Part shown: positions 42,282 through 63,052 of the stretch, piece by piece
Layout: every line of letters starts with the position of its first letter
Numbering within the stretch: position 1 is the stretch's first letter
Origin: an uncultured delta proteobacterium
GTDB taxonomy: Bacteria; Desulfobacterota; Desulfovibrionia; Desulfovibrionales; Desulfovibrionaceae
Direction of reading: 5' to 3'
DNA length: 64,000 bases
NCBI GenBank assembly: GCA_903843965.1
Contig: CAIMRY010000043.1
Span: forward strand, 1 to 64,000
Program-made: the position numbers and the translations under genes
The notes under the pieces: model-generated
Seen by the model: the letters and a program-made list of their open reading frames with translations, nothing else
What the model was told of the DNA's origin: nothing
Database searches by the model: none

Positions 42282-44647
42282 CAGTTCCCGGCCCTGGCGG
42301 GCGGGGTCTTGGGCAGCAGCACAGCCACCGTTGTCTGGCCGGGCACGGAGCAGTCCAGCGTGACGCCGCCGCCGTGAAACTCGGCGATGCGCCGGGCCGA
42401 GTATGTGCCCAGGCCGGTGCCGTTGGCCTTGGCTGCGGTGACGTACTTCTCGAAAAAGCGCTCGCGGATGGCCGCAGGCACCTCGCCCTTGTTGCGGATG
42501 GTGATGCGCCCCGCCCCGCCCTGGCCCTTCTGGTCCACCTCCGGCAAGTCCGCCTCCAGATCCACCTCGATAATCCCGCCCTCGGGCGAGGCCTCCAGGG
42601 CGTTTTTCAGGAGGTTGGCCAGCATGGTCGAGCAGAGGGTCTCCTCGCAGAGGATGTTGAGCGTTGCGCCGGGGGGCAGGGGCGCACCGCCCAGGGTCAG
42701 CAGCACGTGCTTGCCCTGCAGTTGCGGCTCCTGGGCCAGACTTTCCCGCGCGCTTTGGACCAGGGCCACGAGGTCGGCCTGGACCGGCTGGAGCTTCAGT
42801 CTGCCGCGCTCGATGCGCGAAAGCTTCAGGTAGGCGTCGAGGATGCGCAGCATGTTTGCGGCCTGGGCCCCCAGCAGCGTGACCCAGCCGCGCTGCTCGG
42901 CGGTCAGGTTCGGCTGCGCCAGCAGCAGCTGCGGCAGGCTGATGAAGCCCACCAGCGGGCTGCGCAGGTCGTGGCGCATGATGTGCTCCACGGATTCCCT
43001 GGCCTGCTCGCGCTGGGTGCGTTCGGTGATGTCCTCGAAGACCACGATGACCGCGCGCAGGCCGCCGCCTTCTTCACCGAGGGGGTCGCGGCTGGTGTCG
43101 CGGATGGGAATGGCCGCGCAGTGGACCACGGCGCGCCCGGTGGCGTTCGGGGCCTGGATGTCGAGCACCTGCACGGGCAGGGCTTCTTCCCCGGCCAAGG
43201 CCCGGGCCAGCACGAACTCGCCGGGCCGCAGGGGTTGGCCGGTGTCGTGCCGCCAGGCCCGCAGGCCCTGGTTCTGGCCTTGGCCCTGGCCCGGCGCGCC
43301 GCCAGCAGCGCCGCCAGCAGCGCCGCCAGCAGCGTTGTCCGAGGCGTTGTCCGCAATGACATACGCAGCGCAGGCCGCAATGACATCCGCAGCGCAGGCC
43401 CCCGCCGGTCCCCAGATCAGGCGGCTGGCCTGGTTGGCGTACCGGATGCGGCCCCGCTCGTCGGACATCCACACGCCCACGGGCAGGGTCTCCAGGATCA
43501 TGCGCAACAGGGCCTCGTTCTTGCGCACCTCCACCTCGGCGGCCTCCCGCGCGGTGATGTCCCTGGACAGGGCCTCGGCCATGTCGTCCAGCGTCTTGGC
43601 CAAGAGCGCCAGCTCGCCGAAGTCCTCTGGCGCGCCGCTGCGCGCGTCCAGGTCGCCGCCGCCCAGCCGCCGGGCCACGCCGGCCAGCCGCTCCACGGGC
43701 CTGCTGATGACGATGCCGCCCACCACCCAGGCCACGAGGATGGCCAGAAACGCCGCCCCGGCCAGGGACATCAGGTCGCGGTACAGGGTGCTGACGGCCC
43801 CGGCCAGGGCCTGCTGCTCCGGAATGCCGATGGAGATGTAGAGATAGGGCGGGCTCTCCGGGCTCAGGCGCAGCTGCGTGTAGGCCACGATGCGCCGCAC
43901 CCCGTCGGCGAAGGTCACCGTGGCCGTGCCCAGGGGCTTTGGCCCGCTGACCTCGTTCCACAGGTCCTCGACGATCTTCTGCCCGGCGGGGCTGGTCTGC
44001 TCCGCCGGGGGATAGCGGTATAGGCGCTTGCCCGAGTGGTCGGCGATGGACAAGACCGAGCCCGGCGGCAGGGAGGCCACGTTGAAGATGCGCTCAAAGC
44101 GTTCGGGCCGCAGGGCCGTGGCCAAAAGGCCCAGGCTCTGCCCGTCCGCGCCGGTGATGGGGTAGGCGAAGTGCAGAAGCGGCGCTTTGTGCGTGCCGGG
44201 CAGGCCCAGGTCGAAGTCGCCCACGCTGAAGCCCTCGTTTTGCAGGGCCGTTTCAAACTGCTCCCCGGCCTTGAGGGTCGCGGGATGGTCCAGGTGCAGG
44301 GCCGAGCCGAAGACCCGCCCGTGCGCGTCTGCGGCCACGATGTTGGCGAAGACGGCGCTCTGGGTGCGCAGTCGGCGCAGGATGCCGCTGGTGGCCTGGG
44401 CGTCCAGGGCCTTGACCTGGGGCATCTGCGCCAATAGCGAGAGCAGCTGCTCCGCGCGCATGGTGATGAGCTGCTGCTCGCTGGACAGGAACTGGGCGGC
44501 GCGCAGGGCCTCGGCCTGGGCGTCTTTGATGGCCCGGTCGCGGTTTTCCAGGCTGGAGTGCAGGATGACCCCCAGCGCGGGCAGCACGGCCAGAAGAACC
44601 AGCGTGAGCAGGCTGTTGCGCAGGGAGCTGAAGAAGAGGTTTCGCAT
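42281..44647 (-). CDS. Membrane sensor histidine kinase with Cache, HAMP and PAS domains
   Basis: A 788-residue sensor. Helix one is at about 11-31, a double-Cache-like periplasmic domain at about 35-285, and helix two at 292-315, followed by HAMP (316-370) and PAS (380-540). The phospho-acceptor is H559 in EHIMRHDLRSPLVGF. The ATP-binding domain follows (NLLKNALEASPEGG, FFEKYVTAAKANGTGLGTYSARRI in parts). Residues about 415-461 inside the PAS domain are a repeat-encoded insertion rich in A, G and Q. It is followed by the FGE-like gene with overlapping stop and start, and preceded by the response regulator gene 233 bases upstream. Confidence 0.9.
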   Translation of the reverse strand: MRNLFFSSLRNSLLTLVLLAVLPALGVILHSSLENRDRAIKDAQAEALRAAQFLSSEQQLITMRAEQLLSLLAQMPQVKALDAQATSGILRRLRTQSAVFANIVAADAHGRVFGSALHLDHPATLKAGEQFETALQNEGFSVGDFDLGLPGTHKAPLLHFAYPITGADGQSLGLLATALRPERFERIFNVASLPPGSVLSIADHSGKRLYRYPPAEQTSPAGQKIVEDLWNEVSGPKPLGTATVTFADGVRRIVAYTQLRLSPESPPYLYISIGIPEQQALAGAVSTLYRDLMSLAGAAFLAILVAWVVGGIVISRPVERLAGVARRLGGGDLDARSGAPEDFGELALLAKTLDDMAEALSRDITAREAAEVEVRKNEALLRMILETLPVGVWMSDERGRIRYANQASRLIWGPAGACAADVIAACAAYVIADNASDNAAGGAAGGAAGGAPGQGQGQNQGLRAWRHDTGQPLRPGEFVLARALAGEEALPVQVLDIQAPNATGRAVVHCAAIPIRDTSRDPLGEEGGGLRAVIVVFEDITERTQREQARESVEHIMRHDLRSPLVGFISLPQLLLAQPNLTAEQRGWVTLLGAQAANMLRILDAYLKLSRIERGRLKLQPVQADLVALVQSARESLAQEPQLQGKHVLLTLGGAPLPPGATLNILCEETLCSTMLANLLKNALEASPEGGIIEVDLEADLPEVDQKGQGGAGRITIRNKGEVPAAIRERFFEKYVTAAKANGTGLGTYSARRIAEFHGGGVTLDCSVPGQTTVAVLLPKTPPARAGN
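43265..43405 (-). repeat. Repeat insertion inside the kinase PAS domain
   Basis: Two copies of a 24-base unit (GCAATGACATACGCAGCGCAGG-type, quoted short) and three of a 12-base unit GCCGCCAGCAGC make up most of this in-frame 141-base segment. Confidence 0.75.
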
Positions 44648-44880
44648 GGTCGTATCCTAAGGCCTGTTCCTGTGGTCTGTTCCTGTGGTCTGGGCCTGTG
44701 CTCGGGGCCGGGTCAGTTGATTCCGGGCCCTGTGCGGAGGTGCGGAAGTTTTGTGGGAGGCCACGGGACACAAGCCCCGCAGCCTCCGGTCGATGGTTGC
44801 GCCTGGCGTGCAGGATGGGCCTGCGGAAGGGTCGGGGGAAGTCACCACACTTCCCCCAGCCTTTGGCCGGGCGCTTTTGG
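44648..44880. other. Gap between kinase and response regulator genes
   Basis: No gene is visible. It holds a short repeat (CCTGTTCCTGTGGTCTG-like, 44664-44697) and a perfect hairpin, GGGGGAAGT (44834-44842) with ACTTCCCCC (44849-44857), just beyond the response regulator stop. The hairpin may attenuate or stabilise the transcript. Confidence 0.5.
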
Positions 44881-46338
44881 TCACCGTCCGTGTGAGATTT
44901 CGCCGCCTTTTGCGCTGCCCCTTGCGCCGCCCTTCCCGGTCAGGGAGCGGCCGTGCTTGCTGAGCAGGCCATACAGGCGCGAGGGGCTGAGGCCGGAAAT
45001 GTTGAGCGCGCGCTTGAGCTCGCCCGCGCTGGCGCTGATCAGGGCGTCCACGTAGTCCGCCTCGATGCGCTCCTGCTCCTGGCGCTTGTGCTCGCTCCAG
45101 CTGGCCAGCGGGCCCAGGCCGATCTGGCCGGAGCCCGGGCCGCCCTGGCCGGAGCGCGGGCCGACCTTGCCCACGCGGGAGCGCAACATCTGGATGCGCA
45201 GCTCCTGGGGCAGGTGCGCGGGCAGCAGCATCTCCTCGTCCGGGGCGCTGGCCACCATGGCCTCCAGCACGTGCACCAGCTCACGCACGTTGCCGGGCCA
45301 GGCGTACTGCTTGAGAAAACCCTTGAGGTCGCAGGACAGGGTCTTCTGCCCCAGCCTGCTGTCGCGGCAGATGCGCTCCAGGTGGTGCGCGGCGATGGCC
45401 GGGATGTCCTCGCCCAGCTCGCGCAGGGGCGGCAGCTCCAGCACGGCGGAGCGGATGCGGTAGAACAGGTCCTCGCGGAAGGTTCCGGCGGCCACCATGT
45501 CGGCCAGGTTCTTGTTGCTGGCGCAGACCAGGCGGAAGTCCAGGCGCAGCTCACGCGTGTCGCCCAGGGGGCGGAAGGTGCGCGTTTCCAGCAGGCGCAG
45601 AAAGCTCTTCTGCAATTCCAGCGAGAGTTCGCTGATCTCGTCGAGAAAGAGCGTGCCGCCGTCGGCCCTTTGGAGCACCCCGGCCTTGTCCGAAACGGCC
45701 CCGGTGAAGGCTCCCTTGCGGTGGCCGAAGAGGTCGCTGCCGACCAGGGCCTCCTGCAGCGAGGCGCAGTCGACCACCACGTAATTCTTGTTTTTGCGCG
45801 GGCTGCCCGCGTGCACGGCCCGGGCGAAGATCTCCTTGCCGGTGCCTGTTTCGCCCTGGATGAGCACGCTGGCCGAGCTGCGGGCCGCCGTGGCCATCTG
45901 GCGCACGGCCTCGGCCAGGCGCGGGCTTTCGCCCACGATGCCGCGCCGCTCCACCGGCAGGGCCGACTGCTTGTTGCGGCGGAACTCCAGCGCGCGCTTG
46001 AACGAGAGCTGCAGGCCCTCGGGCGAGCCGGTCTTCTGGATGTAGTCCCAGGCCCCGTTGCGGATGGCCAGCTCCGCGCCGTCCGGATCGCCCAGGCCGG
46101 TCATGATGATCAGCTCCGGGGCCGAGGGCAGCTCCTTGACCTTGGGGGCCAGGTCGAGCCCGCTGCCGTCGGGCAGGCGCACGTCGAGGAAGACCACGTC
46201 GAAGTCCGACTCGGCCAGCAGGGCCTCGGCCTGGGCCATGTCCCTGGCCACGGCGGTCTCCACCTCCGGGCCGGAGAGCAGCGAGGCCAGCAGGCGGCCG
46301 AAAAACTCGTCGTCATCGATGATGCAGACCCTGGTCAC
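44881..46338 (-). CDS. Sigma-54-dependent response regulator (NtrC family)
   Basis: A 485-residue transcription activator. The receiver domain (1-120) starts VTRVCIIDDDEFFG and has phospho-acceptor D52 in FLDVRLPDG. The AAA+ domain (about 135-370) has Walker A GETGTGKE, the sigma-54 contact loop KGAFTGA, and Walker B GGTLFLDEIS, so it should activate RpoN promoters. A Fis-type HTH ends the protein (LKRALNISGLSPSRLYGLLSKHG in parts). A glycine-rich repeat linker (RSGQGGPGSGQIGLG) separates the last two. I chose GTG at 46338 because GAGG lies 8 bases upstream; a longer reading to 46452 adds atypical residues. It lies between Hpt and kinase genes in one direction. Confidence 0.88.
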   Translation of the reverse strand: MTRVCIIDDDEFFGRLLASLLSGPEVETAVARDMAQAEALLAESDFDVVFLDVRLPDGSGLDLAPKVKELPSAPELIIMTGLGDPDGAELAIRNGAWDYIQKTGSPEGLQLSFKRALEFRRNKQSALPVERRGIVGESPRLAEAVRQMATAARSSASVLIQGETGTGKEIFARAVHAGSPRKNKNYVVVDCASLQEALVGSDLFGHRKGAFTGAVSDKAGVLQRADGGTLFLDEISELSLELQKSFLRLLETRTFRPLGDTRELRLDFRLVCASNKNLADMVAAGTFREDLFYRIRSAVLELPPLRELGEDIPAIAAHHLERICRDSRLGQKTLSCDLKGFLKQYAWPGNVRELVHVLEAMVASAPDEEMLLPAHLPQELRIQMLRSRVGKVGPRSGQGGPGSGQIGLGPLASWSEHKRQEQERIEADYVDALISASAGELKRALNISGLSPSRLYGLLSKHGRSLTGKGGARGSAKGGEISHGR

Positions 46339-46432
46339 GAGCGGCCTCACATGGTTCTCGGGGTTGGTGTCGCAGCCGACAGGAGATAATCCTGCCCCAA
46401 TCATACCCCAGGCCGTTGATTCAGGCAAATGG

Positions 46433-46795
46433 CTACGAAGCATTGGCTTCATGCCCCAGGCTGCGCAGCTTGGCGAAGATGTAGCCCATGACGATGCCGA
46501 GCCGCTGGTGGGCGTGCCCTGCTGCGGGCAGGTCGCCCTGCTCGCCTGCGGCGTATATCTCCCGGGCGTATGCGGCCAGGGCCTGCACCGGCAGCAGCCC
46601 GGTCAGGCTGGCCAGGCTGTGTGCGGCGTCCATGACGGCATGGGCGTTCCCGGCGGCCAGGGCCTGGTCCAGCTGGCCCAGCCGCTGCTCCCCGGCGGCC
46701 AGGAACAGCGCGCCCATCTTGGCGGGCAGGCGCAGGGCGGCCTTGTCCAGGTCCACTCCCCGGCATTCCGCAGGCACAGAGTCCATTCCCGGCAT
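46433..46795 (-). CDS. Hpt-domain phosphotransfer protein
   Basis: A 120-residue helical protein with the phosphotransfer motif at H59 in DAAHSLASLTGLL. This would shuttle phosphate in a multi-step relay. AGGAG lies 9 bases before the ATG at 46795. It is the first gene of the series Hpt, response regulator, kinase, FGE-like. Since the kinase has no fused receiver, the Hpt may take phosphate from another receiver or act as a branch point. The conserved glycine and lysine around the histidine of classic Hpt (HxLKG) are replaced by HSLAS, so activity needs proof. Confidence 0.75.
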   Translation of the reverse strand: MPGMDSVPAECRGVDLDKAALRLPAKMGALFLAAGEQRLGQLDQALAAGNAHAVMDAAHSLASLTGLLPVQALAAYAREIYAAGEQGDLPAAGHAHQRLGIVMGYIFAKLRSLGHEANAS

Positions 46796-47561
46796 GTCCA
46801 CGCGCTCCTTTGCTCCTGACCGGCGCAGCCTCGGCGCCGGGGTGGTCGGATGTGGTGTTCTGCGGCCCCCCAACATGGGAGGGAGGCAGTCGGGCGCGAA
46901 CAGGTGCCGCGACCGCAGCAGTTGGCCGTAAGGCCCTCACCCCGCTGCGGCCGCGGCGTGGCGGAAGGAGCCACGCCTCCTCCCTATCAAGAAGCCTGCC
47001 AGGATGTACGAAAGTACAACATGCTGGAATTGCGCGTAATAAATTTTGCGGGAATGTATTTGCGGGGTGTATTCCTGAAATATAGGAGCTGCGGCGTAGG
47101 AGCGTCCTGCGATTTCCGTAGGAAGGGGAGCCGCGCCGAAGGGCGGCTGGGGCGATGATCAGGACCGGGGCGCAGGCCAAGGGCCGGGCCTGGCGCTGTC
47201 CGAACCTGTCCGGCGGGCCCGCACCAGGCCGCGCGGGGCGTGGCCGGTTGCGCCGGTTGCGCCCGGTGGAAGCTCTGCGCGCAGGCCAGGCGCAGTGGTG
47301 CAGCGTGGTTCGGTGTGCTTTGGCTCGGGGCGTCGCGTTGGGCCGGGACCGGGCCACGCGCAACGGGCCACGAGTCCCGGAAATGCGGAGCGCACAAGTT
47401 CGAGGCTCGGCACAACAAAAGCCCCGGCATGACCGGGGCTCGTGTTGGGTGCGCAGGTCGTTGCAGGCGACCCTTGGGGCATGGAAAGGCGGTGCGCAGC
47501 CGACTGTTTCCGGCCAGCCTGGCCAGATCAGCAGATCGCCAGATCAGCCAGCCAGCCGGGC
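46796..47561. other. 766-bp intergenic region upstream of Hpt gene
   Basis: I find no credible gene; short open frames run through but lack codon structure and ribosome sites. An AT-rich island at about 47000-47100 interrupts the GC-rich sequence. It contains a small palindrome TGTAC-GAAA-GTACA (47005-47018) and, on the minus strand, a weak sigma-54-like match (TGGCAG-N5-TTGAT, 46985-47001). These may control the Hpt-regulator-kinase operon. The serS terminator lies at 47413-47440. Confidence 0.5.
47413..47440 (-). terminator. Intrinsic terminator downstream of serS
   Basis: On the minus strand AGCCCCGGTC-ATG-CCGGGGCT is followed by TTTGTTG. It lies about 120 bases after the serS stop. Confidence 0.75.
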
Positions 47562-48839
47562 CTACCTGGCCTCGATGCGCTCCAGCCCCTTCATGTAGGG
47601 CCGCAGGGCCGGGGGCAGGACCACGGAGCCGTCGGCCTGCTGGCCGTTCTCCAGCACCGCCACCAGCGCCCGGCCCACGGCCAGGGCCGAGCCGTTGAGC
47701 GTATGCAGGTATTCGCTCTTCTTCGCGCCCTTGGCCTTGAAGCGGATGTTCGCGCGCCGCGCCTGGAAGTCCAGGAAGTTGGAGCAGGACGAGATCTCGC
47801 GGTACTTGTTCTGGCCGGGCAGCCAGACCTCGATGTCGTAGGTCTTGGCCGAGGAGAAGCCCAGGTCGCCGCCGCACAGCGCAATGACCCGGTAGTGCAG
47901 GCCCAGGCGCTTCAAGATTTCCTCGGCGTGGCCCGTGAGCAGCTCCAGGTCGGCCATGGAGCGCTCCGGGTGGCTGAAGCGCACCAGCTCGACCTTGTGG
48001 AACTGGTGCTGGCGGATCAGCCCCTTGGTGTCCTTGCCGTAGCTCCCGGCCTCGCTGCGGAAGCAGGGGGTCAGCGCGCAGTAGCCCAGCGGCAGCTGGT
48101 CCTCGTCCATGACCTCGCCCGCGTGCAGGTTGGTCACCGGCACCTCGGCCGTGGGGATGAGGTAGTATTCCTGGCCCTCGATCTTGAACAGATCCTCCGC
48201 GAATTTGGGCAGCTGGCCGGTGCCGGTCATGGCCTGGCGGTTGACCATGAACGGGGTCAGCACCTCGGTGTAGCCGTGTTCGGCGGCGATATCGAGCATG
48301 AATGCGCCCAGGGCCCGCTCCAGCTTTGCGGCCCAGCCGAAGCTGACGCAGAAGCGCGAGCCGGTGATTTTGCCTGCGCGCTCAAAGTCCAGCCCGCCCA
48401 GCGCCTGGCCCAGCTCCCAGTGCTCCTTGGGGGCGAAGTCCAGCTGCGGCTTTTCGCCCCAGGTGCGGATCACCGGGTTGTCGTCCTCGCCTGCGCCGTC
48501 CGGGGTGGACTCGTGCGGGATGTTCGGCACCTTGAGCAGCCAGTCGGACTCCTGTTCTTCTATGACCGCCAGCTCGGCGTCGAGCTCCTTCACGCGGTCG
48601 CCCATGGCCGACATGCGGGCCATGAGCTCGCCTGCGTCCTGGCCCGCGCGCTTGAGCCTGGCCACCTCGGCCGAGCCCTGGTTGCGTTCGGCCTTCAAGC
48701 CTTCAGCTTCACGAATAAGCGCGATGCGCGCCTCGTCCAGGCGGGCGAACTCGGCCACGTCAGGCTCGGTCTTGCAGCGTTTTTCCAGGCCCTGGCGCAC
48801 GGCGTCCAGGTTCTTCTGCACGAATTTCAGGTCAAGCAT
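47562..48839 (-). CDS. serS: Seryl-tRNA synthetase
   Basis: Charges tRNA-Ser (and tRNA-Sec) with serine. The 425-residue class II enzyme has the N-terminal coiled-coil arm (about 30-100), motif 2 region [14 protein letters not shown] preceded by [15 protein letters not shown], and motif 3 near the end ([17 protein letters not shown]). The start [18 protein letters not shown] is typical. It is transcribed alone. Confidence 0.96.
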
Positions 48840-49086
48840 GCTCGTCTCCTCAAAATGGGGCGCGCCGTCGCGGCGCTGGCGCGGGCTCCCCGCCGCACGC
48901 CCGAAGCCGGGCCGGGGGAGATATTTGTTCCTTTAACAAATTAATGTGTCAAGCGCTGTGTACCCGAAGGCGGGGCGGGAATAAAGGGGGAAATGGGCCT
49001 GTGCGCCAAGGGCTCCGCCCCTGGACCCCGCCGGGGGCCGCTGCCGCCGACCCCACAGCCGGGGGCCGCTGCCCCCGGACCCCCCG

Positions 49087-49109
49087 CCAAAGGGCCTGAG
49101 GCCCTTTGG
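49087..49109. repeat. Palindromic element, second copy
   Basis: CCAAAGGGCC-TGA-GGCCCTTTGG, a 10-bp stem with a three-base loop, near-identical to the element at 34480-34502. Confidence 0.8.
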
Positions 49110-49121
49110 AATCCCCATTAC

Positions 49122-49166
49122 GCCGAAAGGGCTGGGTCAGGCGAAGCCTGTCCCAGCCCTTTCGGC
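49122..49166. repeat. Near-perfect 21-bp hairpin
   Basis: The arms 49122-49142 and 49146-49166 (beginning GCCGAAAGGGCTGGG) are complementary with one mismatch, around a GAA loop. No T run follows, so it is more likely a repeated extragenic palindrome than a simple terminator. Confidence 0.8.
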
Positions 49167-49258
49167 TGATGAGGGGGTTCGGGGGGAATCATTCCCCCCG
49201 GCCGCCGGAGGCCTCTTGCTCTTCAGCTTTCGGAGGCCTCTTGGCTTGTGCCTGTCGG

Positions 49259-49717
49259 CTACGGCTTGATGCCGTTCTCGATGTTCTTGCGGCGCACGTA
49301 GAGCAGGTAGGGCACGATCATGGCCAGGCCCACCGGGGCCAGGTCCTGCTGCCACAGGCACCAGGCCAGCACCGGCGCGCCCAGGACCATGAAGACCGTC
49401 TGGCGCTTTTTGCGCCCGGTGAGGGGCTGGGCCAGCCAGGCGCATTCCTGGCCGATGAGCCGCTCCACCCAGGGCAGCAGCCGCCGCAGCTCCGTGTGCT
49501 GCATGGGCGGTAGGGGCAGCTCCAGGCACCCCAGGCCGAAGCCCAGCGCGGCCAGGGTCAGCAGGGCCGTGTTGTGCGTCACCAGGCCAAAGGGCGCGAT
49601 GGCCAGGCTGGCCGTTTGCAGGCACCAGTTCCAGGGTTCGCGGCGGCGCAGGCGCAGCTTGTGGGAAAGGTTCCTGGCCCGCTCACGCAGGAAGGGGAGA
49701 AAGTGGCCGTGGTCCAT
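49259..49717 (-). CDS. Hypothetical membrane protein
   Basis: A 152-residue protein of unknown function. Hydrophobic helices are visible at about 30-75 ([35 protein letters not shown], in two segments) and 108-140 ([36 protein letters not shown]). A basic amphipathic N-terminus ([20 protein letters not shown]) precedes them. The ATG at 49717 lacks a strong ribosome site, so the start is uncertain. It diverges from pncC. Confidence 0.6.
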
Positions 49718-49783
49718 GGGGTGCAATTGCCACGTCCGGCCCTGTCCTGTAAACAGCGGGAAACAGGAAGCGGGGGTGCGGGC

Positions 49784-50317
49784 ATGAAAAAAGTGGATTT
49801 CCAGGTCCTGCTGGAGCAGGAGGGCATGGAGCGCCTGGGGGCCATGGCCTCGGAGGCGGCCCGCAAGCTGCACGGCCAGGGCTGGCTGCTGGCCACGGCG
49901 GAGTCGTGCACCGGCGGGCTGTTGGCCCACGCCCTGACCAACCTGGACGGCAGCTCGGCCTGGTTCCACGGCGGCGTGGTCTGCTACTCCAATGCCCTTA
50001 AGACCGGGCTGCTGGGCGTGGATGAGGCCGTTCTGGCCGGGCACGGCGCCGTCAGCGAGGCCACGGTGCTGGCCATGGCCCAGGGCGCGCTGCGCCTGCC
50101 GGGCATGCCTCCGGACCGGGGCGTGGGCGTGGCCATTTCCGGCATCGCCGGGCCCACCGGCGGCACGCGGGAAAAGCCCGTGGGCACGGTGTGGATGGCC
50201 TGGGCCTGGCCGGGCGGCCTGCGCGCGGAGCAGTTCCTGTTCCGGGGCTCGCGCGTTTCGGTGAAGTCCCAAAGCGCCGCCGGGGCGCTGTTCGGTTTGG
50301 CGACCTTTGTCCGCTAG
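49784..50317 (+). CDS. pncC: Nicotinamide-nucleotide amidohydrolase, CinA C-terminal family
   Basis: A 177-residue stand-alone CinA_C domain that would deamidate nicotinamide mononucleotide to nicotinate mononucleotide for NAD recycling. Diagnostic motifs: [36 protein letters not shown] (in parts), [43 protein letters not shown] (in parts). It precedes thpR by 7 bases; pncC/cinA and thpR are commonly neighbours, often with recA. The start is probably ATG at 49784, though ATG at 49829 in MERLGAM cannot be excluded. Confidence 0.9.
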
Positions 50318-50324
50318 GGCGGCC

Positions 50325-51089
50325 ATGGCTGCCCAGCCTTCCACCCAGCCCCTGGCCCAGACTTCCGCCCGGCCTGCCGCCAAGCCCGTACCATTGCGCG
50401 GCTTCATCGGGCTGCCCCTGCCGGAGACCTGGCAGCAGGGCCTGGCCCGCGTCACGTTGCGGCTTTCCGGGGAGCTCCGCTCGCGCATCAGCTGGACCCG
50501 GCCCGGCAACTGGCACCTGACCCTGAAGTTCCTGGGCGAGGTGGACGAGGCCCGCCTGCCCGACCTGTCCGACCTGTCCGATCTGTCCGGCCTGCCCGAC
50601 CTGTCCGACCTGTCCGATCTGTCCGGCCTGCCCGGCCTGTCCGACCTGTCCGATCTGCCCGGCCTGTCCGATCTGTCCGATCTGTCCGATCTGTCCGATC
50701 TGATCCGGGCCCTGCGCGCCATATCCTTTGCGCCTTTTGCCCTGGCCGTGGGCCGGGCCGGGGGGTTCCCGCAGGCGGGCGCGCCTCGCGTGCTCTGGGC
50801 GGGCCTGACCCAGGGCCAGGCCGAGAGCGCGCGGTTGGCCGCGCAGGTGGAGCAGGCGCTTGTCCCGCTCGGCTTCGCGCCGGAAGAACGGCCCTTTGCC
50901 CCGCACCTGACCCTGGGCCGGGTCAGGCAGGCGTCCCAGGACGACGCCTGGGCGCTGGTGGAGCGCGCCGTGGCCCTGGAGCCTTGGTCCGTGGCCCAGG
51001 TGGACCGCTTCGTGCCCTGGCGCAGCGAACTGGGTCCAGGCGGCCCGCGTTATTCCAGGTTGGCGGAATTCCCTGCCCGGCCGGAATAA
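50325..51089 (+). CDS. thpR: RNA 2',3'-cyclic phosphodiesterase with a repeat insertion
   Basis: A 254-residue 2H phosphoesterase (LigT/ThpR) that opens 2',3'-cyclic phosphates on RNA. The two catalytic HxTx motifs are present: HLTLKFLGEV near residue 66 and HLTLGRVRQ near 195. Between them, just after the first motif, 48 residues (about 78-125) come from sixteen 9-base units and read DLSDLSDLSGLP repeatedly. Ordinary members are about 180-190 residues, so this insertion, with an N-terminal tail of about 20, accounts for the excess length. The reading frame is intact, so the enzyme probably folds with an acidic, leucine-rich loop protruding near the active site. Confidence 0.9.
   Translation: MAAQPSTQPLAQTSARPAAKPVPLRGFIGLPLPETWQQGLARVTLRLSGELRSRISWTRPGNWHLTLKFLGEVDEARLPDLSDLSDLSGLPDLSDLSDLSGLPGLSDLSDLPGLSDLSDLSDLSDLIRALRAISFAPFALAVGRAGGFPQAGAPRVLWAGLTQGQAESARLAAQVEQALVPLGFAPEERPFAPHLTLGRVRQASQDDAWALVERAVALEPWSVAQVDRFVPWRSELGPGGPRYSRLAEFPARPE
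50556..50699 (+). repeat. Sixteen-copy 9-bp minisatellite inside thpR
   Basis: Sixteen tandem CTGTCCGAC-like units with few substitutions (GAT, GGC, CCC variants). A higher-order 36-bp pattern is visible at the left end. Confidence 0.95.
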
Positions 51090-51527
51090 GGTCTGGACCG
51101 CAGCGGCCAGGCGAAGATATTTTGCGCACATGTTAAACATTTTGTTCTCCGCCCCGCCCAGTCCTGCACTGCGGCCATGTACGTAACAACTTGATCGTAT
51201 ATCCGTGTAATTTTTCACGGGTATACGTATTGACGTTCTTGGTGCGTATTGTGCGGCCAGCTATCGACGAAAACCACAGTTTTCCCTTGGCAGCTGCGAA
51301 ATTGTCCGATAGTGTATTACTTCTGGTTTCCCAGGCGTCGCCGGAGTGCTGGCACGGGGTCGCCGTCTTGTGTGTGCGGACGGGAGTAATGTGTTGCAGC
51401 GTTACTCCCGATAGTGTTCGTGGAGCCATCATCCCGCAGGCGTACACTGTCGGAACGTTTTTCCGGCTGATACGGTTGTGCGGTACTAGCTCGAATGATT
51501 TACTTAATAGGCAATTGAGGAGGGTGT
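51090..51527 (+). other. Regulatory region upstream of chemoreceptor 2, with two hairpins
   Basis: No gene. The segment is far less GC-rich than its surroundings. A hairpin at 51196-51227 has 12-bp arms (CGTATATCCGTG with CACGGGTATACG, one G-U pair) and a T-rich loop. A second at 51381-51410 has perfect 9-bp arms (CGGGAGTAA / TTACTCCCG) with a 12-base loop. A TTGACG box follows the first hairpin at 51229. The long leader suggests regulation after transcription start or multiple operator sites. Confidence 0.6.
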
Positions 51528-53843
51528 ATGTTCCGGAAAAGCATCAGCAGCGTGCTTATCGCATCAGTGACCGTGGCTGTGTTCCTGGCCGTGGCCGCCA
51601 TTGTCATCTACGTCTCGCGCTCGTCGTACAACATGGCGCTGGAGATGGAGCAGCAGTCGATGCAGCAGGTCTCGGCGTCCACCCAGGCGGCGCTGGACGT
51701 GTATATCAACAACACCAGGGTGATGGTGGAGACTCTGGCCATCCAGAAGGCCATCCAGGAGGCCTTTGAGGGCGACCCAAAGCGGGCCAGGGAGCGCCTG
51801 CTGGACTACATCCAGGTCAACAAGGACTATTGGGCCCTGTTTGTTTTTGACGCCAAGGGCGTGATCCTGGCCGGGTACAACGCCAACAAGGACGACCTGA
51901 CCGGGCAAAGCCGCGCGGACCGCGACTATGTCAAGGCCGTGCTCGGCGGACAGGACCTGTACGTGGGCAAGGAGATCCTCAAGGCCAAGAGCGGCGAAGG
52001 CGAGCTGTTCATCTTTTCCATGGCCAAGGCCATCAAGGACAAGGGCGGCAAGGTGCTGGGCGGCGTGGGCGCCTTTCCCCGCTGGGAGGTCTTCACCAAG
52101 ACCGTCATCGACCCGCCCCGCTTCGGCGCGCGCGGCTACGGCTTCATGGTCGACTCCAAGGGCCGCATGATCGCCCACGCCGTGGACAAGTCCCTGATGC
52201 TCACGGACATGAACGAGCATGAGTTCATCCGCAAGGCCCTGGCCCTGAAGAACGGCACCATGTTCTACGACTGGAAGGGCGAGCAGAAGTACCTGACCGT
52301 GTCCACGGACCCGGACACTGGCTGGGCCGTGTGCCTGAGCGCCTACGTTGCGGACATGACGGCCACGGCCACCATGCAGCGCAACATCCTGCTGGGCATC
52401 GGGCTTGCGGTGATCCTCGTGTTGGTGGGCGTCATCTCGCTCATCATCAGCCGCCTGGTGGTGCGCCCCTTGAGCGACATCGAGGCCTTCACCAGCCGCA
52501 TTGCCCAGGGTGACTTCAAGGCCCAGCTGGGCAGCGGGTTCAAGTTCGAGCTGGCCAGCCTGGCCGGAAACATCCGCTCCATGGTGGCCGAGATCAAGAA
52601 CAAGCTCGGCTTTTCCCAGGGTGTGCTCATGGGCATTCCCACCCCCTGCGGCATTGTCGGCCCGGACTTCAAGATGCTCTGGCTGAACCAGCATGTCTGC
52701 GACTTCCTGGAAAAGCCAAAGCCTCCGGCGGAATACATCGGGCAGAAGTCGGGCGAGTTCTACTGGAACGACCCCAACCGCGAGACCATGTCCGACAGGG
52801 CCATCCGCCAGAACTCCGTGCAGAAGGGCCAGGTGAACTTAGTGCTGAAGAGCGGGCAGGAGGTGCATGTGGACGTGTCCACCACCCCGTTCTTCGACCT
52901 GGACGGGAAGATGCTCGGGTCCATCTCCTTCTGGGCGGACATCACCGACATCATGCGCAACCAGAAAAAGATCGAGCAGCAGAACGAGAAGATCGCCCGC
53001 GCCGCAGAGGCCGCCACCGCCATTTCCGACCAGGTGGCCTCGGCCTCGGAGGAGCTCTCGGCCCAGATCGAGCAGTCCAGCCGCGGCACCGAGGCGCAGC
53101 GCGCCCGCACGGGCGAGGCCGCCACGGCCATGGAGGAGATGAACGCCACGGTCATGGAGGTGGCCCAGAGCGCCTCGGGCGCGGCGGAGCTGGCCGACCA
53201 GGCCAAGAAAAAGGCCCAGGAGGGCGCGCGCCTGGTGGACGAGGTCGTGGCCAACATCAGCCAGATCAACACCCGGGCCGAGGCCCTGAAGGTGGACATG
53301 GGCGAGCTGGGCAAGCAGGCCGAGGGCATCGGCGCGATCATGAACGTCATCTCCGACATCGCCGACCAGACCAACCTCCTGGCGCTCAATGCCGCCATCG
53401 AGGCGGCCAGAGCGGGCGACGCCGGACGCGGCTTCGCCGTTGTGGCCGACGAGGTGCGCAAGCTGGCCGAAAAGACCATGACCGCCACCAACGAGGTGGG
53501 CGCGTACATCAAGGCCGTGCAGGGCAGCGCCAAGAAGAACATCGAGGGCACCGAGGCCACCACCAAGGCCATCCAGGCCGGCACGGCCACGGCGGGCAAG
53601 TCCGGCGAGGCCCTGCGCGAGATCGTGGGCCTGGTGGACCGCACGGCGGACCAGGTGCGCTCCATCGCCACGGCCTCGGAGGAGCAGTCTGCCGCCAGCG
53701 AGGAGATCAGCCACACCACCGAGGACATCAACCGCATCGCCAGCGAAACGGCGGAGGCCATGAACCAGTCGGCCCATGCCGTGTCCGACCTCTCGCGCCT
53801 GGCCCAGGAGCTCAAGCGGATCATCGGCAACATGCAGGACTAG
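51528..53843 (+). CDS. Methyl-accepting chemotaxis protein with Cache, HAMP and PAS domains
   Basis: A 771-residue transmembrane chemoreceptor. Helix one at about 8-30, a periplasmic double-Cache domain at 35-280 ([42 protein letters not shown] in parts), helix two at about 288-312, HAMP to 365, a PAS domain at about 370-480 ([19 protein letters not shown]) with cysteines at its start, then the signalling domain with [21 protein letters not shown] and [24 protein letters not shown] precedes the ATG. The PAS and signalling parts are close to chemoreceptor 1, suggesting a shared origin. The gene has its own long leader and a duplicated terminator. Confidence 0.93.
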
Positions 53844-53849
53844 ACGGCT

Positions 53850-54036
53850 GCGCGGGCTGGCGCACGAAATTGAAACGGGGCGGGAAGCGGATTCCTGCCC
53901 CGTCTTTTTGCGAGGGGTTGCGGGTTGCGGCGGTATGCGGGCTTGCAGCGGGGCTGGCGCGCAAATATGACGCGGGGCAGGACGCGTGTTCCTGCCCCGC
54001 GTCGTGTGCGAGGGTTGCGGGTTTGCGGCGGGGTTT
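53850..54036 (+). terminator. Tandemly duplicated terminator after chemoreceptor 2
   Basis: Two diverged copies of about 90 bases follow each other (53850-53946 and 53947-54036). Each has GGCTGGCGC, a hairpin (GGGGCGGGAA/TTCCTGCCCC in the first; GCGGGGCAGGA/TCCTGCCCCGC in the second) and GAGGGTTGCGGGTTGCGGCGG. The first hairpin ends in CTTTTT and is a good terminator; the second has lost the T run. Confidence 0.8.
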
Positions 54037-54532
54037 ACGCGGTGTAGTCCCCACGGTTGAACTTGATGCGTTCCGTCACCGCCATGACCTCCAGCTCCGA
54101 CACCACACCCTGCAGGGCCGGGTGGGCTTGCGCCAGGTCGGGGTTTTCGCCCTTGAGCTGCTGCACGGTTCCGTCGATGTCCTGAAGAACGCCGTAGGCC
54201 TTCTTGAGGTCCGCCGAGCCGGAGGTTCCTTGCAGATTCTGGGCGTACTGGTCCCACTTGTCGAGCAGGTTGTCCACCTTGTCCACGATCGTGCTCTCCG
54301 CCTTTTGCACCGGGGCCACAGACTCGACAGCGCCGACGCCCATGAGGGCGCTTAAGGTGCCGAGCCCGCCCGGCGGGGGCAGGGGAGCGCTGGTCTTGGG
54401 GGCGTCCGTGCCCGTCTTGGCGACTTCCTGGTTCAGGAGATCGCCGAAAGCGGTGCTGGGCGGCTTGACCCTGTTCGTTTGCGGCGCGCTGTCCGGACGA
54501 ACTCCTTCCAACTGGTCAGGATGGATCTTCAT
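54035..54532 (-). CDS. Hypothetical protein
   Basis: A 165-residue soluble protein that I do not recognise. The first 55 residues are proline-rich and probably disordered (KTSAPLPPPGGLG). The rest is predicted helical with heptad-like spacing (STIVDKVDNLLDKWDQYAQNL; LQDIDGTVQQLKGENPDL; VSELEVMAVTERIKFNRGDY). It has no signal peptide or membrane segment. MKIHPDQLEG with GAGCAACC upstream gives a reasonable start. It sits alone between the chemoreceptor and universal stress genes. The C-terminal ERIKFNRGDY motif resembles small flagellar or secretion-associated proteins only superficially. Confidence 0.6.
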   Translation of the reverse strand: MKIHPDQLEGVRPDSAPQTNRVKPPSTAFGDLLNQEVAKTGTDAPKTSAPLPPPGGLGTLSALMGVGAVESVAPVQKAESTIVDKVDNLLDKWDQYAQNLQGTSGSADLKKAYGVLQDIDGTVQQLKGENPDLAQAHPALQGVVSELEVMAVTERIKFNRGDYTA

Positions 54533-54858
54533 GGTTGCTCCTCATCCTGTGTTTTGTTTCTATTGTGCAGAGACCATGCCAACGAGATCTGCGCATAAGT
54601 CGCTGTAACTTTAGTGTTCTTGCGCGTCCCGCCGGTGGGCAATTCTTGCCTGCCTCCGGGCTGTGCGGCTCTCTGCCTGTGCTTTCGGATATCCCATGGC
54701 CGGGGGCTTGTCCATCGGACCGGGCTTGGCCGCTTCAGCCCCCTTATCGGCGCGTTTTGTCCTTGCGTTAATGGACGCCGGTGATTATTTTCACATTGTT
54801 CATGTATCCCCCTTTCCCCAAAAGGGGCAACCGCCGACGACCTTTGAGGAGGACAGCC
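54533..54858. other. Divergent intergenic region
   Basis: No gene is visible. The stretch 54780-54830 is AT-rich (GATTATTTTCACATTGTTCATG) and probably holds the universal stress gene promoter, but I cannot assign boxes with confidence. Confidence 0.4.
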
Positions 54859-55302
54859 ATGGCCCAGATCAAGAAGATTCTTTGCGCAGTGGATTTTTCC
54901 GAGCACAGCCCGGCCGTGGCCGAGTACGCGCGCATCATGGCCCAGGGCCTGGGCGCCACCATCGACTGCCTGTATGTCGCCCCCTCGCTCAGCCAGTACG
55001 TGGGCTTCCACGTGCCGCCGAGCTCCATCGAGAACTTCGTGGGCGAGATCGTCACCGGTGCCGAGGCCACCATGAGCGCCTTCCTGAACGAGAACTTCCA
55101 GGGCGTGCAGGCCGTGGGCCATGTGGTCACCGGCTACGCGGCCGAGGAGATCTTCGGCATGGCCGCCAAGGAGAACGTGGACCTCATCATCATGGGCACC
55201 CATGGCCGCAAGGGCATCGACCGCATCCTCTTCGGCTCCGTGGCCGAGAAGGTCGTCAAGGGCGCGCGCTGCCCGGTGCTGACCATCAGGCCCACCAAGT
55301 AG
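54859..55302 (+). CDS. Universal stress protein (UspA family)
   Basis: A 147-residue single-domain Usp. It begins IKKILCAVDFSEHSPAVAEYA and ends with the ATP-binding signature GTHGRKGIDRILFGSVAEKV followed by CPVLTIRP. The G-2x-G-9x-G-S pattern indicates an ATP-binding member. GAGGAGG precedes the ATG at 54859. It is monocistronic, with a 14-bp repeat array beginning 30 bases after its stop. The precise stress cannot be inferred. Confidence 0.93.
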   Translation: MAQIKKILCAVDFSEHSPAVAEYARIMAQGLGATIDCLYVAPSLSQYVGFHVPPSSIENFVGEIVTGAEATMSAFLNENFQGVQAVGHVVTGYAAEEIFGMAAKENVDLIIMGTHGRKGIDRILFGSVAEKVVKGARCPVLTIRPTK

Positions 55303-55332
55303 CAGGCCGGAAGGTCCGCCGGACCGTGGCGG

Positions 55333-55514
55333 GCTGGCCGGGACGGACTGGTCGGCGCGGGTTGGCCAAGACGGGTTGGCTGAGATGGGTTGGCTGAGAT
55401 GCGTTGACCGGCGCGAGTTGACCAGCGCGAAACGGTCAAGCCGGACAGGCCAAGACGGACAGGCCAAGCCGAAACGGCCAAGCCGGACAGGCCAAGGCGG
55501 ACAGGCCAAGCCGA
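55333..55514 (+). repeat. Thirteen-copy 14-bp tandem array between usp and hisC
   Basis: A continuous 14-base period runs for 182 bases. Units drift from GTTGGCCAAGACGG-like at the left, through GTTGGCTGAGATGG and GTTGACCGGCGCGA, to ACAGGCCAAGCCGG-like at the right. The period is not a multiple of three and no reading frame is kept. The remaining parts of the 55303-55680 gap show no gene. Confidence 0.92.
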
Positions 55515-55680
55515 GGCCGCCCGCCAGCGCCCAGCCGCGCTGGCGCGCACCGGCGTGGACCGGCCCGGGCGGTTGCGCCGAACCGCAAGTCCGGCTATGG
55601 CTCTTGCCAATACAGTCGCACAGGGGACGCCCCGAGGCGGTTCCCTGTTTTTTCGCATTGAGTCCAAGAAGGGGTGCGCC

Positions 55681-56781
55681 ATGCCAATCGAGCGAGTCCG
55701 GCCGGAGATACTCACCTTCACGCCGTATGTTCCCGGCCTGTCCATAGACGAGATCAAGGCCAAGTACGGCCTGAGCACGGTCATCAAGCTGGCCAGCAAC
55801 GAGAACCCGCTGGGCGCCTCGCCCGTGGTGCAGCAGGCGCTGGCCCGCGCCGTGGGCCAGGTCTTCCGCTATCCCCAGAACCACAGCCCGCGCCTGTGCC
55901 AGGCCATCGCCCAGGCCATGGGCGTCCCGGCGGAGGCCATCGTCTGCGGCAACGGCTCGGATGAGATCATCGACCTGCTGCTGCGGGTCGTGGCCCGGCC
56001 CGGCCAGGACAACGTGGTCTGCTACGAGCACTCCTTCAGCATGTACGGCATGATGTCCCGGATGTGCGGGGTGGAGTACCGCGAGGTGCCCCGGGGCGAG
56101 GACTATCGCCTGCCGCTGGAGTCCCTGGCCGAGGCCGTGGACCGCAACACCGCGCTGGTCTTCGTCACCAGCCCGGACAACCCCACGGGCCTGGCCGCCA
56201 AGGCCGAGGAGCTCATGGTCCTGTCCGGCATCTTGCCCGCAGGCGCGCTTTTGGTGGTGGACGAGGCGTACATGGACTTCACCTGGCCGCCGGAAGAGTA
56301 CTCCATGCTGAATGTCCTGGGCGAGCTGGGCAACGTTGTGGTCCTGCGCACCTTTTCCAAGGCCTATGGCCTGGCTGGCCTGCGCCTGGGCTACGGGGTC
56401 ATGCCCGCGTGGCTGGCCGAGCACCTGCGCCGCGCGCGGCCGCCCTTCACCGTGAACCTGCTGGCCGAGGAGGCGGGCGTGGCCGCCCTGGGCGACGACG
56501 CCTTCTACAGCGCCACCCTGGAGGTGGTCTTCACCGGGCGCGAGCGGCTGCTCAAGCGCCTGCCCGAGCTGGACTGCACGGTCTGGCCCTCCCAGGCCAA
56601 TTTTGTCATGTTCCGCCCGCCGCTGGCCGCTGGCGTGGTCTGCGAGGAGCTGCTCAAGCGCGGCATCATCGTGCGCCACCTGAAGAGCTTCGGCCTGCCG
56701 GGCCACATCCGCGTCAACGTGGGCACCGGCCCGGAGACAGAGGCCTTCCTCAAGTCCCTGGAGGAGATCCTCCATGCCTAG
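55681..56781 (+). CDS. hisC: Histidinol-phosphate aminotransferase
   Basis: A PLP enzyme of histidine synthesis, 366 residues, class I aminotransferase fold. It shows KLASNENPLG near 37, FRYPQNHSPRL, GNGSDEII, TSPDNPTG, VVDEAYMDF, and the cofactor lysine K227 in TFSKAYGLAGLRLG. The C-terminus RHLKSFGLPGHIRVNVGT is typical of HisC, though a relaxed aromatic or imidazole substrate range is possible. The last 8 bases overlap cmk. Confidence 0.92.
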   Translation: MPIERVRPEILTFTPYVPGLSIDEIKAKYGLSTVIKLASNENPLGASPVVQQALARAVGQVFRYPQNHSPRLCQAIAQAMGVPAEAIVCGNGSDEIIDLLLRVVARPGQDNVVCYEHSFSMYGMMSRMCGVEYREVPRGEDYRLPLESLAEAVDRNTALVFVTSPDNPTGLAAKAEELMVLSGILPAGALLVVDEAYMDFTWPPEEYSMLNVLGELGNVVVLRTFSKAYGLAGLRLGYGVMPAWLAEHLRRARPPFTVNLLAEEAGVAALGDDAFYSATLEVVFTGRERLLKRLPELDCTVWPSQANFVMFRPPLAAGVVCEELLKRGIIVRHLKSFGLPGHIRVNVGTGPETEAFLKSLEEILHA

Positions 56782-57496
56782 CGCCCCCCAGTCTGCTCCG
56801 AAGTCTGCCCAGAAGTCTGCCCAGAAGGCTGCCGCCCCGCTCATCATCACCCTGGACGGGCCCGCAGGCGTGGGCAAAAGCTCCATCGCCGCGCGCCTGG
56901 CCGAGGAGCTGGGCATCGCCTTTCTGGACACCGGGGCCATGTTCCGCGCCGTGGCCTGCACCCTGGGCGAGGGTGCCTGGGACTGGCCCCAGGGCGTGTT
57001 GCAGCAGAAGCTGGGCGAGTACGACTTCACCCTGCGCGGCAGCGGCAGGCAGACCGAGCTGTTGCTCAACGGCCAGCCCCTGCCGGAGGAGATCCGCTCC
57101 GAGCGGACCGGCCTGTGGGCCTCCAAGCTGGCCGTGCTGCCCACGGTGCGCGCCACCATGAAAATGGCCCAGATCTTTCTTGGCCGGACCACCTCCCTGG
57201 TGGCCGAGGGCCGCGACATGGGCACCGTGGTCTTCCCCGGCGCGCAGTTCAAGTTCTTCCTCGACGCCGAGCCCGAGGAGCGCGCGCGCAGGCGCTGCCG
57301 CCAGCTTCAGGCCCAGGGCAAGCCCGCCGACCTGGCCGCCATCCTCCAGGCCATCACCCTGCGCGACCACCAGGACCGCACCCGCAGCATCGCGCCCATG
57401 AAGCCCGCCGAGGGCGCGGTGGTGGTCGACACCACGCACGTCACCGAGAACGAGGCCCTGGAAAAGGTGCTGCACGTGGTCTGCGGCCAGAGGTAG
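56774..57496 (+). CDS. cmk: Cytidylate kinase
   Basis: Phosphorylates CMP and dCMP. The 240-residue protein has the P-loop GPAGVGKSS (29-37), LDTGAMFRAVA, and EGRDMGTVVFPGAQFKFFLDAEPEERARRR (in parts). The first 20 residues are repeat-encoded (SAPKSAQKSAQKAA) and precede the usual start of the fold, so they are an added tail. The ATG overlaps the hisC end by 8 bases, implying coupling. A strong terminator follows. Confidence 0.93.
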   Translation: MPSAPQSAPKSAQKSAQKAAAPLIITLDGPAGVGKSSIAARLAEELGIAFLDTGAMFRAVACTLGEGAWDWPQGVLQQKLGEYDFTLRGSGRQTELLLNGQPLPEEIRSERTGLWASKLAVLPTVRATMKMAQIFLGRTTSLVAEGRDMGTVVFPGAQFKFFLDAEPEERARRRCRQLQAQGKPADLAAILQAITLRDHQDRTRSIAPMKPAEGAVVVDTTHVTENEALEKVLHVVCGQR

Positions 57497-57525
57497 CTTC
57501 CCCTTCCCGCGCGCGGAGCACGAAG

Positions 57526-57570
57526 AACGCCCGCCCCGGCCACCCATTGCGTTGGGCCGGAGCGGGCGTT
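57526..57570 (+). terminator. Intrinsic terminator of hisC-cmk
   Basis: AACGCCCGCCCCGGCC pairs with GGCCGGAGCGGGCGTT around a 13-base loop, with TTTCG after it. Confidence 0.82.
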
Positions 57571-57702
57571 TCGCTGTTGTTGCGGTCCGGGCCTGCCCGC
57601 GTCACCCGTCCGATGTTCGCCGGGCCGCGTGTGGGCTGGCCGCGCCGTGTCCGAGCTGTTTCCGCCCGGCCCAAAGCAGTTCTGCTGTTCGCTGGCGCGT
57701 CG

Positions 57703-58770
57703 CTACTCCGCCGTGCTGACCCCGGCCGAGGCGAAGGACGCCATTTCGTTGAAGATGGCCGCAGCCGAGCGCAGCAGGAACATGGCCAGGGCCGCGCCCG
57801 TGCCCTCGCCCAGGCGCAGGCCCAGGTGCAGCAGCGGGGTCTTGCCCATCTTCTCCACCGCCAGCTTATGGCCCGGCTCTGCAGAGGCGTGGGCCAGCAC
57901 GGTGTAGTCCGCCGTGGCCGGACACAGCTTCCAGGCCGCCACGCAGGCCGCCGTGGAGATGAAGCCGTCCACGCAGACCATCTGGCGGTTTTTGGCCGCG
58001 CCCAGGATCAATCCGGCCAGGCAGGCGATCTCGTACCCGCCCAGGGCCGCCAGGATGGTCAGCGGGTCTCCTGAGGATATGGCTGCGGCATTGGCCGCCA
58101 GGCCCCGCTTGATGACCGCCACCTTGCGGCCCACGCCAGCCTGGTCCAGGCCGGTGCCCGGGCCGGTCATGGGCGCAGGGTCCAGGCCCAGGTACGCGCA
58201 GTACAGCGCGGTGGAGGGCGTGGTGTTGCCGATGCCCATGTCGCCGGTGCCCAGCACGCGCACTCCGGCGGCCTTTGCGCGGTCGGCCAGGTCCACGCCC
58301 AGCAGCAGGGCCTGCTCGCACTGGGCGATGCTCATGGCCGGGCCCACGGCCAGGTTGGCCGTGCCCTCGGCCACCTTGCCCTGGATCAGGTTCGGGTGCG
58401 CGTCAAAAGGCCCGCCCAGGCAGCCTGCGTCGACCACGAAGAGCTCTGCCCCGGCGGTGCGCGCCAGCACGTTGATGCCCGCGCCGCCATGCACGAAGTT
58501 GGCCACCATCTGGCGGGTCACCTCCTGGGGGAACAGGCTCACGCCCTCGGCCACCACGCCGTGGTCGCCGGCCACGGTGTACACGCGGCAGGGGTCGGCT
58601 TGGGGCTTATTTCCGCCCTGGATCATGTAGAGCTGGAGCGCCAGCTCCTCCAGGCGGCCCAGGCTGCCCTGGGGCTTGGTCAGGTTGTCCAGGTGGGCCT
58701 GGCCAGGGTCGGCCAGGGCGCGGTCGACCGGGGAAATGGCCGCCAGGACGGCGCTCAGGGATGCGTTCAT
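57703..58770 (-). CDS. cobT: Nicotinate-nucleotide-dimethylbenzimidazole phosphoribosyltransferase
   Basis: Activates the lower ligand base of cobalamin by transferring phosphoribose from nicotinate mononucleotide. The 355-residue protein shows LTKPQGSLGRLEELA, VAGDHGVVAEGVSLFPQEVTRQM (in parts), GTGDMGIGNTTPSTAL, GTGLDQAGVGRK and CVDGFISTAAC. The C-terminal catalytic glutamate region is LRLGEGTGAALAM. It is monocistronic and controlled by a cobalamin riboswitch with terminator directly upstream. Confidence 0.95.
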   Translation of the reverse strand: MNASLSAVLAAISPVDRALADPGQAHLDNLTKPQGSLGRLEELALQLYMIQGGNKPQADPCRVYTVAGDHGVVAEGVSLFPQEVTRQMVANFVHGGAGINVLARTAGAELFVVDAGCLGGPFDAHPNLIQGKVAEGTANLAVGPAMSIAQCEQALLLGVDLADRAKAAGVRVLGTGDMGIGNTTPSTALYCAYLGLDPAPMTGPGTGLDQAGVGRKVAVIKRGLAANAAAISSGDPLTILAALGGYEIACLAGLILGAAKNRQMVCVDGFISTAACVAAWKLCPATADYTVLAHASAEPGHKLAVEKMGKTPLLHLGLRLGEGTGAALAMFLLRSAAAIFNEMASFASAGVSTAE

Positions 58771-58826
58771 GTAAACTCCTTTTCGAGCAGGCTTGGCGCG
58801 GGGGTTCTCCGCCCCGCGAGGGCGAC

Positions 58827-58871
58827 AAAAAAGGGTTCCGGCGGACGCGCCAACGCCCGCCGGAACCCTTT
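58827..58871 (-). terminator. Riboswitch-controlled terminator in the cobT leader
   Basis: On the minus strand AAGGGTTCCGGCGG pairs with CCGCCGGAACCCTT, followed by a run of T. It lies between the cobalamin aptamer and the cobT ATG and would terminate transcription when the vitamin is bound. Confidence 0.88.
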
Positions 58872-58882
58872 GCCATCAAGTT

Positions 58883-59074: not shown

Positions 59075-59158
59075 TAGCCGAATCCGCCGCGCATTTCAAG
59101 GGGCGCTCCCCGGAAACGGTCGGCCCCGGCCCGGCACGGGCATTGCAACACCCCCGGC

Positions 59159-60022: not shown

Positions 60023-60042
60023 GGCCCGATAGGAGTGTGGAC

Positions 60043-61254: not shown

Positions 61255-61298
61255 GGGAGCGGGGCGCATCATTCTCGACGGTCTTGGCCCGGCGGCCT

Positions 61299-62930: not shown

Positions 62931-62940
62931 CGCGGGCCGG

Positions 62941-63000: not shown

Positions 63001-63052
63001 GGCCACAACGGCGCATGCGCGCTGCCCAGGATTTTTCGCGCCGATCTCGCCG

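Follow-up and report, generated by a model that had tools for sequence, protein, structure and literature searches.

A nine-base coding minisatellite in the ThpR gene of a sulfate-reducing bacterium, probably a young slippage expansion of an ancestral unit

The question raised by this locus is how a small, conserved RNA enzyme, the 2',3'-cyclic phosphodiesterase ThpR, came to hold a long block of nine-base tandem repeats between its two HxTx motifs, and whether the block serves any purpose there. The stretch analyzed, here called the window, is 64,000 nucleotides from a 3.56-Mb draft genome in 46 contigs. The reading that we favor, and consider probable, is that the array is a young, lineage-specific coding minisatellite, produced by slippage expansion of an ancestral unit and tolerated in ThpR. 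The features that define the host gene and its upstream neighbor are the following.

49793..50317, plus strand: CinA-family gene (PncC domain), directly upstream of ThpR; PF02464 at 2.1e-49, also TIGR00199; start from crude gene prediction
50325..51089, plus strand: ThpR gene (RNA 2',3'-cyclic phosphodiesterase, LigT/2H family), 254 aa from the ATG at 50325; TIGR02258, PF02834 and a fold match to 1vdx
50514..50525, plus strand: first HxTx motif, His-Leu-Thr-Leu, H64-L67, with H64 and T66 invariant in alignments
50904..50915, plus strand: second HxTx motif, His-Leu-Thr-Leu, H194-L197, with H194 and T196 invariant in alignments

ThpR is identified by a TIGR02258 match at 7.3e-38, scoring 130.3 bits against a curated cut-off of 65.7, and by a match to Pfam LigT_PEase (PF02834) at 1.6e-26. 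The TIGR02258 match is split in two stretches that meet at the array in genome coordinates; no second copy of ThpR is seen in the genome, both profile matches being halves of the single gene. The alignment of relatives to ThpR begins at about RCFVGLPLP, and an in-frame TTG at 50394 is an alternative start equally compatible with the N-termini of relatives. Invariance of the HxTx residues was judged in two alignments, of 12 and 26 sequences, and the placement of the array between the two motifs in a preliminary description of this DNA is confirmed, with HLTL (H64) on one side and PHLTL (H194) on the other.

The stop codon of the CinA-family gene lies 7 bp before the ThpR ATG. Neither a promoter nor a terminator is assigned to the array: 49600-51600 has no promoter-like site and a single terminator-like site at 50273-50289, for which the shuffle mean of 2.1 is higher. 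Rfam gives one match over 44000-64000, a cobalamin riboswitch distant from the array, located at 58882-59102 of the window on the minus strand and scoring 59.6 bits (gathering score 31.5). Also on the minus strand, an ORF of 487 aa spans 49259-50722 and is partly kept open by the stop-free array; the likely real minus-strand gene, by crude prediction, is 49259-49726.

The AlphaFold model of ThpR, made with the 26-sequence alignment, has a mean pLDDT of 86.3. In ten-residue blocks, the values for residues 21-70 and 121-254 are about 83-98, and those for residues 71-120, the part that contains most of the array, are about 55-73; short helices are drawn in the array region. The predicted model has the 2H phosphoesterase fold, with 181 of 184 residues aligned to 1vdx at rmsd 1.9 and Z 21.6 (low-confidence stretch omitted) and with Z 19.6 to E. 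coli LigT (5ldi_A). Because the model keeps this fold in both alignments, ThpR is predicted to be a whole enzyme, to which the array adds a low-confidence loop outside the conserved fold. Compared with the ThpR/LigT family (TIGR02258; 2H phosphoesterases; 1vdx, 1iuh, 5ldi), the window protein has both HxTx motifs, the whole predicted fold and a score above the TIGR02258 cut-off, and it differs in the 45 additional residues that follow the first HxTx strand.

The array itself consists of exactly sixteen 9-bp units at 50556-50699 on the plus strand, which make 48 codons in frame inside the ThpR gene and are translated as LPDLSDLSDLSGLPDLSDLSDLSGLPGLSDLSDLPGLSDLSDLSDLSD, array residues 78-125, with Leu at each third residue. 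Five unit types are distinguished: A, CTGCCCGAC, present twice; B, CTGTCCGAC, three times; C, CTGTCCGAT, seven times; D, CTGTCCGGC, twice; and E, CTGCCCGGC, twice. They are arranged as follows.

50556..50699, plus strand: order of units in the array, ABCDABCDEBCECCCC
50556..50627, plus strand: two identical 36-bp higher-order copies, ABCD ABCD, from the unit list and the TRF period of 36
50556..50564, plus strand: probable seed unit, CTG CCC GAC (Leu-Pro-Asp), from the codon listing of 29 named relatives

TRF reports the array in the window as period 9 × 16.9 and as period 36 × 4.0, the latter with 93% matches and a score of 253. When the whole window was shuffled 30 times with dinucleotides preserved, the best score was 66, and 9 of the 30 gave no row at all. 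The initial count of sixteen in-frame units at this position is confirmed. Unit differences are transitions only and are confined to 3 of the 9 columns, and every unit type is present more than once. No stop codon occurs in any frame of the array. What we have is an array above chance, made of a unit that is a multiple of three, in a conserved host gene, and the earlier reading of it as an in-frame minisatellite was right; it was also right that a unit of nine keeps the frame at any copy number, as this period cannot shift it. The insert was first described as a loop of 48 residues. That figure is correct for the codons in the array, but the net gain is 15 units, or 45 residues, because 1 of the 16 units is taken as ancestral. 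With the insert, this RNA enzyme gains 11 or 12 Asp residues, a change that may not be neutral.

Whether the loop is unique to this genome, a point that the preliminary description had left to an alignment of homologs, is answered by reading the site in relatives. A ThpR search over 59 genomes, this one included, gave a match in 45, and the site was read in 30 relatives from that set, comprising 14 congeners (G007 and G013 included) and 16 others. For G013, the first reading (L014) was broken by a contig end and the site was later read from a fetched stretch, as it was for G007. None of the 30 relatives read has an insertion at the array site, the 14 of 14 searched congeners being among these, and a second collection, whose genomes are partly shared with the first set, likewise has the array in none of its 29 named loci. 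The collections compared have one genome per species. At one locus, L164, the array site is longer by about four residues; in the 29-relative codon listing, its row and those of L150 and L154 are registered at a different FLG. At the level of the order, TIGR02258 matches 97 of 150 genomes (own included), and by the span of that match no other clear array-like split is found among the 150, with the sites in G066 and G137 unread. The match in G124 is split, and its site, which was read, is without an array; the other split matches are on two contigs in G066 and partial in G137. Some unsplit matches are up to about 28 residues longer than the model.

The same comparison can be made by the spacing from HxTx to HxTx, which is 122 residues in the window ThpR and 77 in 29 of 56 relative rows. 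The range in relatives is 42-108 (56 rows with a value, from two overlapping sets), the extremes being 42 in L164, where the gene is shortened, and 108 in L149, which is G007 and owes its spacing to an insertion in a different loop. This congener (L149 / L183) has its own low-complexity insertion there, SQSRSSSGDKDRGADKGRGG, which suggests that ThpR tolerates loop insertions. By these alignments, the array is in no relative read at the site, and of all the genomes read, this species is the sole one in which the 45-residue insertion is seen.

The relatives also indicate where the array came from. The residues there are R-L-P-(E/G/D)-(L/V) in several close ones and V-P-D-L-V-R-A-L in L163/G013. 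Since the residues of relatives at the site match it, one unit is probably ancestral, and the empty site as reconstructed would probably have read CTG CCC GAC and then CTG. In the scheme we propose, this ancestral CTG CCC GAC (+ CTG), located where the helix that follows the first HxTx strand begins, would have been duplicated by strand slippage. The array of a few units would then have acquired variants and been re-amplified, partly as 36-bp blocks, and would hardly have mutated since growing from units that were already different. That the units were copied after diverging is indicated by the restriction of all variation to three columns and by the five types, none of them single; such a pattern of copied variant units may be the trace of slippage or of unequal exchange. 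Slippage would be favored by the near-palindromic unit (GTC-C-GAC) and by the folding of the array as RNA, which surpasses that of 200 of 200 shuffles (z -4.12); a hairpin-prone unit of this kind may slip more readily than others. Three features would make the insertion tolerable: its position outside the conserved 2H fold, a unit length that is a multiple of three, and the absence of stops from every frame. Purifying selection on ThpR would remove only events that break the frame or the fold. We infer slippage as the process, tolerance of the insert, and a lack of function.

The setting for such an event is a genome moderately rich in tandem repeats. Outside the window, nine 20-kb stretches not selected for repeats have 45 TRF arrays in 180 kb (25.0 per 100 kb), and the window has 30 in 64 kb (46.9 per 100 kb), so that window and unselected stretches together have 75 in 244 kb (30.7 per 100 kb). 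Stretches chosen for pattern matches have 76 in 206.7 kb (36.8 per 100 kb). By comparison, the figure is 15.6 per 100 kb in the sister G002 (56 in 360 kb) and 20.0 in G009 (8 in 40 kb). The excess over the sister outside the window is only 1.6-fold, and the sister, being a metagenome-assembled genome, may have lost arrays. The ThpR array is somewhat exceptional, because its tandem-repeat score is the top one in the 450.7 kb sampled of its own genome. Loss of mismatch repair as the source of the repeats is ruled out by the presence of MutS1, at 930 bits.

How much should be made of the preserved frame can be judged from these other arrays, divided into coding and intergenic by a crude gene predictor with arrays at gene edges (5, 2 and 1) excluded. 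The period is divisible by three in 84 of 96 coding arrays of this genome (38/44 in the sample that includes the window, 46/52 in the chosen sample) versus 16 of 48 intergenic ones (8/26 and 8/22), and in the sister the counts are 44/45 coding and 5/10 intergenic. Because periods divisible by three are standard in coding arrays and not in intergenic ones, the frame preservation in ThpR is attributed to ordinary purifying selection. The preliminary description had singled out a frame kept despite possible slippage; the frame is indeed kept, but it has no special meaning when most coding arrays of the genome do likewise.

Several of the other repeats deserve a record of their own. In the window, intergenic arrays are found at 55359-55514 and 53854-54031, with 14/42-bp and 97-bp units, and a 10-bp array of 6.5 copies at 62941-63005 begins about 10 bp past a stop codon. 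The last 63 bases of that gene, stop included (62868-62930), have a slightly diverged second copy 224 bp downstream at 63092-63154. Candidates for fast-changing typing loci elsewhere in the genome are the intergenic arrays at L104 4911-5033, L103 14162-14233 and L093 8253-8360, whose units of 13, 16 and 19 bp have 100% matches. In-frame repeats of related sequence, with TRF periods of 18 and 36 bp (multiples of nine), are found at L093 9166-9267 in a SpoU methylase-domain protein and at L092 13465-13607 in a PSP1 protein, within its C-terminal part.

A 9-bp period is shared with a class of dispersed arrays, (GTCNGACNN)n, which have the form (GTC N GAC NN)n, an odd-palindrome core with a free center base and a free 2-bp spacer. 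They extend up to 31 units, several adjoin the ends of long ORFs, and the loci seen are L127-L132 in G052, L133-L134 in G048 and L170-L181 across the phylum. From 25 such arrays, of which two (L135, L136) are in congeners, 165 interior units were compared: A, C, G and T are evenly represented at the center base, with an entropy of 2.0 bits at the center and 1.8-1.9 bits in the spacer, and the arms are 95-98% conserved, a figure partly due to the search pattern. One viral contig matches a three-unit pattern of the unit. A decayed 9-bp array with a variable spacer lies at L090 17724-17831 (G000:C17, about 252090), seemingly across a stop codon.

Could the ThpR array be an inserted member of this dispersed palindromic repeat? 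In the phylum, a scan of 395 genomes with a four-unit pattern (at most 1 mismatch) gives matches in 15 and lists none for the control, and a three-unit pattern with at most 3 mismatches is found 178 times in G052 versus 9 for the reversed control (10 versus 2 in G048; in most other genomes scanned the control count is equal or higher). Within the home genome, the array DNA matches five other degenerate places at E from 1.4e-10 to 8e-4, four decayed look-alikes occur in the sampled stretches, and the window outside the array has 16 matches to two-unit GTCCGRC, where shuffles average 5.95 and reach at most 13. The unit, too, is GTCCGAC-like. However, the home genome has none of the four-unit matches in the scan of 395, and at 26 three-unit matches (array included) versus 19 for the control it is hardly enriched; of the genome's 16 matches to a pattern of two and a third ThpR units (at most 1 mismatch), 15 are inside the array. 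The conserved and variable positions are also reversed. The dispersed repeat keeps its GTC/GAC arms and frees the center and spacer, whereas in the ThpR array all 16 units share the center C and the spacer CT, and only 3 of 16 have both arms intact, as GTCCGAC; moreover, relatives of ThpR carry the local seed unit. For these reasons, the array is not filed under (GTCNGACNN)n, and we regard its arrival as an inserted copy as very unlikely. A variant in which it is a protein-coding outgrowth of the hairpin-forming repeat, which expanded at near-matching codons and forced ThpR to accommodate it, seems to us a little less improbable than that and still unlikely.

A second group of explanations gives the array a role or questions its assembly. 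As a contingency locus it would gain and lose 9-bp units, shift the loop length and with it the activity of ThpR, and have its variability under selection. The unit of nine, the lack of stops and the young, homogenized array would fit this, and so would the copy-number variants of tandem repeats in isogenic populations reported for M. tuberculosis promoters (PMC12817950). On the other side, arrays are found throughout the sampled coding and intergenic DNA of the same genome. The array also does not look like one of the flexible active-site loops that PMC5283653 names for E. coli LigT (alpha5-beta6, beta8-beta9 and beta4-beta5), as compared by chain order and not residue by residue, which leaves an active-site loop role unsupported. 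Nothing supports a tuning role, functional variability is unneeded as an explanation, and we hold the contingency locus to be unlikely. ThpR, moreover, is not known as a surface or host-interaction gene, which counts against tuning. The opposite possibility is a fixed structural or binding domain gained by ThpR in this lineage, for which one can point to 48 regular residues with Leu every third and to the short helices of the AlphaFold model; with block pLDDT only about 55-73 up to residue 120, no counterpart in the 14 of 14 searched congeners, and a unit makeup that looks like raw DNA amplification with no protein-level divergence seen, this is highly improbable. Finally, a 144-bp array is near short-read length and the genome is a 46-contig draft, so that a wrong copy number or a misjoin could be suspected, but the array lies wholly inside a single contig, its flanks are intact, the frame stays open, its variant units serve as internal markers, and an assembly artefact is the explanation to which we give hardly any credence.

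There remains the reading as a young coding minisatellite, and for this the literature offers partial parallels. Prokaryotic coding satellites and minisatellites, as surveyed in PMC6749651, are alike in an in-gene unit that is a multiple of three, amino-acid repeats and an array-rich genome; the ThpR array differs in sitting in a small conserved enzyme with a period of 9. The phase-variable repeats of M. tuberculosis promoters (PMC12817950) are alike in that the ThpR array, too, is a tandem array that could change its copy number, and unlike in that this array is coding and not in a promoter. Among the matches listed, which lie outside subscription journals, there is no paper on an in-frame ThpR array, on Humidesulfovibrio minisatellites or on GTCNGACNN arrays.

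More attention may be due to the (GTCNGACNN)n arrays found elsewhere in the phylum than to the one in ThpR, which is otherwise of an ordinary kind and of interest as an instructive example. It is a clean case of minisatellite birth in a small conserved enzyme, in which the seed, the variants, the higher-order block and the empty site are all readable. Such arrays can also mislead annotation, here by helping to hold open a minus-strand reading frame and by dividing the profile match to ThpR. With relatives that are without the array and many other short repeats in the genome, the array would seem to be an unremarkable by-product of DNA-copying slips in the gene for a housekeeping RNA enzyme of a sulfate-reducing bacterium.
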